From: Microcaldota archaeon | GTDB taxonomy: Archaea; Micrarchaeota; Micrarchaeia; Micrarchaeales; Micrarchaeaceae | Direction of reading: 5' to 3' | DNA length: 64,000 bases | Assembly: GCA_021817565.1 (NCBI GenBank) | Contig: JAKAUP010000003.1 | Coordinates: 1-64,000 of the forward strand | In this document: positions 4,281 to 8,861 of the stretch, one piece after another | How the letters are laid out: each line of letters starts with the position of its first letter | How positions within the stretch are numbered: position 1 is the first letter of the stretch | Program-made: the position numbers and the translations under genes | The notes under the pieces: generated by a model | What the model was told of the DNA's origin: nothing | The model's input: only the letters and a program-made list of their open reading frames with translations | Database searches by the model: none

Positions 4281-4383
4281 GCGGGGGTGGCAGAGTTTGG
4301 TCAAATGCGCAGGATTGAGGAACCTAAAATTCAAAATTCCTGTGTCTTTAGGGGCTGCGTGAGTTCAAATCTCACCCCCCGCA
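4281..4383 (+). tRNA. tRNA-Leu (GAG) with a 16-nt intron at 37/38
   Basis: The seven-pair acceptor GCGGGGG/CCCCCGC with discriminator A, the D-arm, the anticodon stem CAGGA/TCCTG, a class II variable arm and the T-arm GTGAG-TTCAAAT-CTCAC are all present. The anticodon is GAG (4317-4319). A strict bulge-helix-bulge can be drawn, with central helix TTGA/TCAA and 3-nt bulges GGA and AAT. It places the intron at 4321-4336, the canonical 37/38 site. The gene is embedded in the rpoD-rpl18e operon, directly touching the rpoD stop. Confidence 0.93.
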
Positions 4384-5747: not shown

Positions 5748-5945
5748 ATGATGATACCAGTCAGATGCTTTACTTGCGGCGCGGTCATAGGAGACAAGTG
5801 GGAAGAATATGACAGGCGCGTGAATAAGGAACATGAACATCCTGAAAAGGTTTTTGAGGATCTTGGAATAAAGAGGTATTGCTGCAGAAGAATGTTTCTG
5901 AGCAACATAGAACTGATAGATGAGTTCGTAGGAAACAGTAGGTAA
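5748..5945 (+). CDS. rpoN: DNA-directed RNA polymerase subunit N
   Basis: This 65-aa homologue of Rpb10 has the zinc-binding pattern PVRCFTCG and YCCRRMF. The tracked ORF begins 27 codons too early, inside rps9. The ATG at 5748 follows a GGTGAT ribosome binding site that overlaps the rps9 stop. In many archaea rpoK and enolase come next; here tRNA-Pro and rps2 follow directly. Confidence 0.95.
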
Positions 5946-5979
5946 GGTTATTATATTTGCTGTATTGAGATTTAACTGT

Positions 5980-6085
5980 GGGGCCGTCTGCTAGCTTGGT
6001 AGGCTACCGGCTTGGGGTGCTGGCGACCCGAGTTTTATCCAAACGGGAATTCAAAAGCGAGCCGCTGAAAATCTCGGCGGCCCCA
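5980..6085 (+). tRNA. tRNA-Pro (GGG) with two introns in the T-arm
   Basis: The acceptor is GGGGCCG/CGGCCCC with discriminator A, and the anticodon stem CCGGC/GCTGG closes loop TTGGGGT, giving anticodon GGG (6014-6016). The T-stem halves CCGAG (6028-6032) and CTCGG (6073-6077) are 40 nt apart instead of 7. Removing 6033-6049 (17 nt) and 6056-6071 (16 nt) leaves a perfect T-loop TTCAAAT. The second insert has a bulge-helix-bulge-like fold (TTCA/TGAA and GCG/CGC with AAA and AAT bulges). The first insert contains an imperfect hairpin. A single 33-nt intron would leave a T-loop without C56, so two introns fit better. Exact splice sites are inferred. Confidence 0.85.
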
Positions 6086-6096
6086 AAGGTGTTAAA

Positions 6097-6828
6097 ATGG
6101 AGGAAGAACAACTATTGATAAACCCAAACGATTACCTTAAGGCAGGTATACATATAGCTACAAAAGTAAAGAGCGCAGGAATGGCCAAATTCATAATGAA
6201 GGTAAGGGAGGACGGTCTGTACCTGCTTGACATAAGGGCGATAGACTCCAGGATAAGGGTTGCAGGATCGATGATATCGAAGTATGAACCCAAGGATGTT
6301 GTTGTGACAGCTTCAAGGCTTTATGCAATAACCGCAGCAAAGAAGTTTGCAGAGATAATAGATGCGAAGTTCATCCCGGGAAGAGTCACGCCTGGAGTCT
6401 TCACGAATCCTTACAAGGAGGGCTTCTCAGAGATAAAACTATTGGTCATTAGCGATTCGAGAAACGAAAAGCAGGGAATAAAGGAGGCAAGCACGGTGAA
6501 TGTTCCAATCATAGCGCTTAATGATACTGATAACATAACAAAATACCTTGATCTGATAATACCGGTAAACAACAGGGGCAGGAGGGCGCTAGCTTATACA
6601 TATTACCTCCTGGCAAGAGAGGTGTTGAAGAACAGGGGCGTGATAAATGGCTATGACGAGTTCAAGTACACGCCAGAGGACTTTGAGGTAAGAAGTGAGA
6701 GGAAGGAGATGGATGGAAGGGCTGACTATGAACGTAGTACAAGACAGGAGGAAAGTTCAGAAAATGTAAAAGAGCAGGCTTCTGTGAAGGAGCCGGCCAC
6801 CTTAGATGCTAAGGTAGAAAACGCTTGA
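6097..6828 (+). CDS. rps2: Small-subunit ribosomal protein S2
   Basis: This 243-aa protein is archaeal uS2. LINPNDYLKAGIHIATK, FIMKVREDGLYLLDIRAID, FIPGRVTPGVFTNP and the nucleotide-binding-like LIIPVNNRGRRALAYTYYLLARE mark the fold. About 40 residues at the C-terminus form an acidic, low-complexity tail with several Glu and Ala repeats. It follows tRNA-Pro by 11 nt and its 3' end overlaps the convergent prenyltransferase by 27 bp. Confidence 0.95.
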   Translation: MEEEQLLINPNDYLKAGIHIATKVKSAGMAKFIMKVREDGLYLLDIRAIDSRIRVAGSMISKYEPKDVVVTASRLYAITAAKKFAEIIDAKFIPGRVTPGVFTNPYKEGFSEIKLLVISDSRNEKQGIKEASTVNVPIIALNDTDNITKYLDLIIPVNNRGRRALAYTYYLLAREVLKNRGVINGYDEFKYTPEDFEVRSERKEMDGRADYERSTRQEESSENVKEQASVKEPATLDAKVENA

Positions 6829-7751: not shown

Positions 7752-8861
7752 ATGCGCAAGAAGCAGAAAAATCAGGGGAGGCATGCACAGACCGCCCTTG
7801 AATTCGTGACTACTTATGGCTGGGCTATGCTGATAATCGCGATAGTAATAGCGATACTTGCAGTATATGTGGGTCCGAGAGTCAACGCTTCGAAAATACC
7901 ATTCCAGTGCAACATACAGCCGGGCATACCATGCACAGGCGCAACGCTGCTTGGTTACAATTCGACAGTTGGAGGATTAAGGTACTTTATCTCTATAACA
8001 AACAACTTAGGTTTGCCGATTCTCTTTGCCAGCAAATCGATTAGGATAAGCGTAGATAACATAGGCTCAACCGGCACCTCCAACTACATAGGGATATGCA
8101 GACCTTCGGAGGTATACCCAGGAGGTATAGCTATATGCAACGTGACGATACCGGGAAGCGTTGAACCGTCGATAGGTTCAGACGTAAGGGTAAACTTCAA
8201 CTTAAGCTACTCTATATGCCAAAGCGGGACCTGCACAGGAAATTACATTGCGACGGGCCAGTCCCTTCAGGAGCTGAGCTCTGCTAACACATCGTTCGAT
8301 ACCTTGACTTTTGATACATCTCCCTCTGCGGGAGGCAGCGTATATATGCAGGGTATTCAATACTCCAACGGAGATACGGTTCTGCTGAATAAAGGTAATT
8401 ATATCATATATGCATCCCCAGATTATGGTTATGTGTTTACTGGGTGGACTGTAAGCGGCGGAAGCCTAAGCTCGTTGAGCTCTGAGGAATCGACACTAAC
8501 CTTGCCCGGTAATGCGACTGTGACTGCAGAGTTTGCAAAAGGCTCCGCCTCGACCATACCAGTCTTTATAACGACTTCGACTGTTGGAACAACAACCTCC
8601 ATATCAACATCTACCCTTGCATCATCATCCTCTACGACATTGTACTCATCGTCATCCTCTACGACATTGTACTCATCGTCATCATCTTCAACTACACTGT
8701 ACTCATCTTCCTCCTCGTCAACCACATTATACTCTTCGTCATCATCTTCAACTACACTGTACTCATCTTCCTCCTCGTCAACCACATTACATTCGTCATC
8801 TTCAACAACCACGCAGACAACTACTACAAAAAGTTTATGCGGGACCTGCTGTACATGCTAG
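7752..8861 (+). CDS. Pilin-like surface protein with InlB-type repeat and Ser/Thr stalk
   Basis: The N-terminus is a class III (pilin/archaellin-type) signal. A basic leader ends in GRHA, followed by QTALEFVTTYGWAMLIIAIV, which would be cut and leave the hydrophobic helix for filament assembly or anchoring. Residues to about 180 form a beta-rich domain. GGSVYMQGIQYSNGDT to ATVTAEF resembles a bacterial InlB B-repeat. From about residue 285 there is a Ser/Thr stalk of repeated TTLYSSSSS units, probably O-glycosylated, ending in SLCGTCCTC. The stalk is encoded by a tandem DNA repeat. The next gene begins 17 nt after the stop. Confidence 0.7.
   Translation: MRKKQKNQGRHAQTALEFVTTYGWAMLIIAIVIAILAVYVGPRVNASKIPFQCNIQPGIPCTGATLLGYNSTVGGLRYFISITNNLGLPILFASKSIRISVDNIGSTGTSNYIGICRPSEVYPGGIAICNVTIPGSVEPSIGSDVRVNFNLSYSICQSGTCTGNYIATGQSLQELSSANTSFDTLTFDTSPSAGGSVYMQGIQYSNGDTVLLNKGNYIIYASPDYGYVFTGWTVSGGSLSSLSSEESTLTLPGNATVTAEFAKGSASTIPVFITTSTVGTTTSISTSTLASSSSTTLYSSSSSTTLYSSSSSSTTLYSSSSSSTTLYSSSSSSTTLYSSSSSSTTLHSSSSTTTQTTTTKSLCGTCCTC
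8620..8812 (+). repeat. Tandem repeat coding the Ser/Thr stalk
   Basis: Degenerate 27-30-bp units of the type TCATCATCTTCAACTACACT are arranged in a higher-order 60-bp period. The stretch at about 8676-8729 recurs almost exactly at 8736-8789. Each short unit encodes a run of Ser followed by TTLY. Such repeats change length by slippage or recombination and could vary stalk length between strains. Confidence 0.85.

Follow-up and report, generated by a model that had tools for sequence, protein, structure and literature searches.

Introns in archaeal tRNA genes are known to occur at positions 53/54 and 59/60, among others, and tRNAs carrying several introns are well established (PMC4090602, PMC4033280). 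The tRNA-Pro(UGG) of P. islandicum, for instance, is interrupted at 25/26, at the canonical site and at 56/57 (PMC4090602), and ARMAN-1 and ARMAN-2 are listed among the organisms with multi-intron tRNAs (PMC4033280). The shortest archaeal tRNA introns known measure 11 nt (PMC3218864), and closely spaced ones need iterative removal according to an excerpt of the tRNAscan-SE 2.0 paper (PMC8450103). The locus described here fits into this picture as what is almost certainly a functional micrarchaeote tRNA-Pro(GGG) with two separate BHB-type introns in its T-arm (17 nt at 53/54 and 16 nt at 59/60), between which lies a 6-nt exon, TTCAAA.

The tRNA-Pro(GGG) gene and its T-arm insertions

The window, that is, the whole stretch of DNA analysed (64,000 nt, bases 1-64000 of contig 3), comes from a genome of 775 kb (97% complete), the ribosomal protein S2 of which has its nearest named record in Candidatus Micrarchaeota MAG YP4.bin78 (82% identity). 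The gene lies on the plus strand at 5980-6085 (precursor 106 nt, mature tRNA 73 nt), flanked by genes that we identified from their translations as RpoN (ending at 5945) and S2 (rpsB, 6097-6828). It is the sole GGG match of a pattern search in its own genome. Neither ARAGORN nor the Rfam tRNA model detects it, as expected because of the two-intron architecture of the T-arm, and the case illustrates how annotation can overlook a needed tRNA. The acceptor stem is formed by 5980-5986 and 6078-6084, with A6085 as discriminator, and the T-stem by CCGAG (6028-6032) and CTCGG (6073-6077). The first-pass annotation had placed the two T-stem halves 40 nt apart, which is exact (6033-6072), and the removal of 17 and 16 nt around TTCAAA that it proposed does leave the loop TTCAAAT and hence a textbook T-arm, CCGAGTTCAAATCTCGG (CCGAG-TTCAAAT-CTCGG), which is uninterrupted in intronless relatives. 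The features are as follows:

5980..6085, plus strand: tRNA-Pro(GGG) gene, a full cloverleaf once two introns are removed; orthologs likewise lie upstream of rpsB
5980..6032, plus strand: exon 1 (positions 1-53), its 3' end being the T-stem 5' strand CCGAG; T-arm part near-invariant in 69 family genomes
6014..6016, plus strand: anticodon GGG in the loop TTGGGGT (6012-6018), by pattern match
6027..6030, plus strand: BHB 1 central helix, 5' strand CCCG, pairing with CGGG at 6044-6047; bulge AG^T at 6031-6033; 4/4 pairs in 33 of 34 intron-1 genomes
6033..6049, plus strand: intron 1, TTTTATCCAAACGGGAA, 17 nt, position 53/54; missing from 35 of the 69 genomes; the loop varies, and the final 6 nt, CGGGAA, are nearly fixed
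6044..6047, plus strand: BHB 1 central helix, 3' strand CGGG; bulge AA^T at 6048-6050; inner helix TTT (6034-6036) / AAA (6041-6043)
6050..6055, plus strand: micro-exon TTCAAA (positions 54-59); TTCAAA in all but one of the 69 genomes, the exception having TTCGAA
6056..6071, plus strand: intron 2, AGCGAGCCGCTGAAAA, 16 nt, position 59/60; missing from 9 of the 69 genomes; the loop varies, and the end, TGAAAA, is nearly fixed
6066..6069, plus strand: BHB 2 central helix, 3' strand TGAA, pairing with TTCA at 6050-6053; bulges AA^A (6054-6056) and AA^T (6070-6072); inner helix GCG (6057-6059) / CGC (6063-6065); 4/4 pairs in 59 of 60 intron-2 genomes
6072..6085, plus strand: exon 3, comprising T60, T-stem CTCGG, the acceptor 3' strand and A73

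At both of its splice sites, each intron displays the hallmark of archaeal BHB introns, a 4-bp central helix with 3-nt bulges, the cut being placed in our assignment two bases into each bulge. The inner helix of BHB 1 is closed by the loop ATCC and its outer helix is weak; as the latter has only 2 bp (GA/TC), we consider BHB 1 a relaxed motif. The inner helix of BHB 2 carries the loop AGC, and the T-stem itself would serve as the outer helix of this motif. When the 40-nt insert was shuffled 200,000 times, no arrangement arose in which two introns each had a 4-bp BHB helix and flanked a TTC-type micro-exon. Of the distinct introns, 14 of 29 introns 1 and 35 of 48 introns 2 have an inner helix of 2 bp or more (shuffled means, 3.4 and 5.8). 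An Rfam scan of 5900-6200 for other types of introns (e.g. group I) returned no family match, and one sub-threshold sRNA match on the opposite strand.

Two introns around a six-base micro-exon had been called extreme in the first-pass annotation: the arrangement holds, but the adjective has to be toned down in part, as nine other tRNAs of the same genome have T-loop introns and the double insertion recurs through the order. Among the own-genome tRNAs surveyed, at places found by Rfam search, eight of these nine share the 59/60 helix register, with changes matched on both sides of the helix (TCCA/TGGA and TTCG/CGAA), and the extra 53/54 intron is found in tRNA-Pro(GGG) only.

Several further features of this genome are worth recording. 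tRNA-Arg(TCG) (window 9702-9600, minus strand) carries an intron of 28 nt in its T-loop (59/60, 9641-9614) with a perfect TTCA/TGAA BHB helix, tRNA-Leu(TAA) (window about 17110-17000, minus strand) an apparent D-loop intron of ∼22 nt with TCTG/CAGA pairing, as judged by eye, and another tRNA-Leu (window 4281-4383), undetected by ARAGORN, an anticodon-loop insertion. An intact tRNA-Ala(CGC) (contig C2:130002-130073, L006) and, 4 kb from it, a repeated copy of its 3' part (C2:133943-133995, L138) likely served a small integrated element as attachment sites. A surface protein is probably encoded by the ORF at window 7752-8861, which combines an InlB-B-like repeat domain (PF18998) with a long Ser/Thr tandem repeat (SSSSSTTLY).

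Splicing enzymes and the order of intron removal

The epsilon2 endonuclease of ARMAN was reportedly described by Fujishima in 2011. In the genome studied here, a single endonuclease ORF of 386 aa aligns near end to end with the structure of ARMAN-2 epsilon2 EndA (4FZ2/9W2K, 535 bits). The catalytic triad (Y236, H251, K282) and the Tyr-Lys pair of the ARMAN-specific loop (Y160, K161), positions named in earlier work (PMC6379350, PMC12397907), are conserved as read off this alignment, and an RtcB ligase is also encoded (E=1.2e-166). Judged from sequence, the genome thus possesses both the cognate splicing endonuclease and an RtcB-type ligase.

Most probably, the epsilon2 endonuclease would act on both BHBs, cutting each 3-nt bulge after its second base, and RtcB would ligate the three exons of tRNA-Pro(GGG). 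With less certainty, intron 1 may usually leave before intron 2, because BHB 1 occupies the T-stem 5' strand, and CCGAG/CTCGG could stack as the outer helix of BHB 2 only afterwards. In its full form this amounts to an order-wide splicing relay, in which removal of intron 1 creates the complete BHB 2 and the order is obligatory, yet each intron is gained and lost separately; such a relay may operate, and we advance it tentatively. With both introns real, it is possible, if somewhat doubtful, that intron 2 leaves first or the order is random, since the epsilon2 enzyme accepts relaxed motifs, an alternative that concerns the order step only. The ARMAN-2 endonuclease has indeed been reported to cleave relaxed motifs (PMC4033280, PMC12397907), and the competing folds of the unspliced arm are close in energy (-6.2 kcal/mol for the T-stem plus BHB 2 with intron 1 bulged out, -5.3 for BHB 1 plus BHB 2), so that these energies impose no order of removal; the minimum-energy fold of the arm is neither of the two (-10.4 kcal/mol). 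However, a complete BHB 2 with the T-stem directly stacked as its outer helix requires that intron 1 be gone, and the tRNAscan-SE 2.0 authors, in the excerpt cited, describe closely spaced introns as having to leave in sequence (PMC8450103). Minimum-energy folding gave no cloverleaf for either the whole precursor or the mature tRNA and was left out of the evidence.

With two BHB motifs in one arm, both competing with the T-stem, and relatives that show every intermediate state, tRNA-Pro(GGG) offers a very compact natural test case of ordered tRNA splicing.

Intron states and tRNA-Pro genes among relatives

The ortholog upstream of rpsB was compared in 69 genomes of the family, counting the window's own and leaving out one row that holds another tRNA (G012). 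Both introns are present in 30 of them, the second only in 30, the first only in four (G007, G050, G014, G036) and none in five, all from genus g4; states are mixed inside genera g4, g7, g16 and g19. In this set the T-arm exons hardly vary and the intron loops are hypervariable, with intron 1 ranging from 12 to 35 nt and intron 2 from 12 to 24 nt, and in the nearest relative the differences in the tRNA are confined to the two introns. In one genome (G013) the T-stem pair itself is altered and the intron-1 helix is maintained via a G-U pair. A T replaces C at the first helix base in five genomes, all without intron 1; because these five are related, this association is weak evidence. On a ribosomal-protein/RpoN tree (S2+RpoN+S9), a quick tree with many unresolved forks, the fewest changes come to at least eight for intron 1 and at least six for intron 2.

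A single 33-nt T-loop intron giving an unusual T-loop would account for the total excess of 33 nt and lie inside the known range of 11-129 nt (PMC3218864), but it is very improbable: in keeping with the point on C56 made in the earlier annotation, none of the eight possible 33-nt excisions yields TTC/C56 (the loops being such as TGAAAAT or TTTAAAT), either insertion occurs alone in relatives, and TTCAAA is conserved between the insertions while both flanks are hypervariable. That the gene is a decaying pseudogene with chance insertions, as the failure of standard finders might suggest, is just as hard to credit for the sole GGG pattern match of the genome, with intact stems, exons conserved over dozens of genera and BHB pairs retained. 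Genome comparison instead argues for two separately removable introns in tRNA-Pro(GGG), and the exact boundaries proposed for them at the outset find support both in the BHB motifs and in the occurrence of all four intron states among relatives. Taken together, the two introns are almost certainly real and have been independently gained and lost, a series of gains and losses that bears on the spread of tRNA introns in archaea with broad-specificity endonucleases.

Among 301 genomes of the phylum, 34 match the exact double-insertion pattern. Eight of these lie outside the family, and in five of the eight the tRNA directly adjoins the S2 gene. The double state is therefore either old or recurrent at the order level.

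Genes for tRNA-Pro(AGG) are also found among the relatives. In the sister family f2 (L232, L233, L231), the tRNA-Pro beside rpsB carries AGG instead of GGG, and in the window's own family genera g10 and g15 (L225-L229) have AGG on a different tRNA-Pro body, no GGG gene being detected in them. Pattern matches in 148 related genomes gave AGG in 62 and GGG in 69, the two being almost mutually exclusive, with both in one genome only (G147), and a full cloverleaf was confirmed for several of the AGG genes. tRNA-Pro(AGG), the anticodon of which has A34, apparently arose at least twice, on different tRNA bodies. Archaea have been stated to lack genes for tRNAs with A34 (PMC11066159). Of seven f2 genomes tested, two showed a TadA-like deaminase (PF14437).

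Comparison with described multi-intron tRNAs

The multi-intron tRNAs of Thermoproteales (Pyrobaculum, Thermofilum) likewise harbour multiple short BHB introns per tRNA; in the Micrarchaeota gene, in contrast, both introns sit in a single arm, separated by a 6-nt exon, and the endonuclease is of the epsilon2 type instead of (alpha-beta)2. ARMAN-1 and ARMAN-2 come closer, having the same endonuclease type as the window genome and reported multiple introns. ARMAN-2 belongs to the same phylum, and its published tRNA list may already contain this very gene. In the tRNAscan-SE 2.0 account of iterative introns (PMC8450103), too, one intron has to be out before the second BHB forms, with no specific T-arm pair named in the excerpted part. 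Published tRNA-by-tRNA intron lists aside, we did not find the combination of 53/54 and 59/60 with a 6-nt exon stated in the literature. Both positions, multi-intron tRNAs and a spacing that forces one intron to leave first have thus been described already, and the present gene is an unusually compact instance of them, conserved at the order level.
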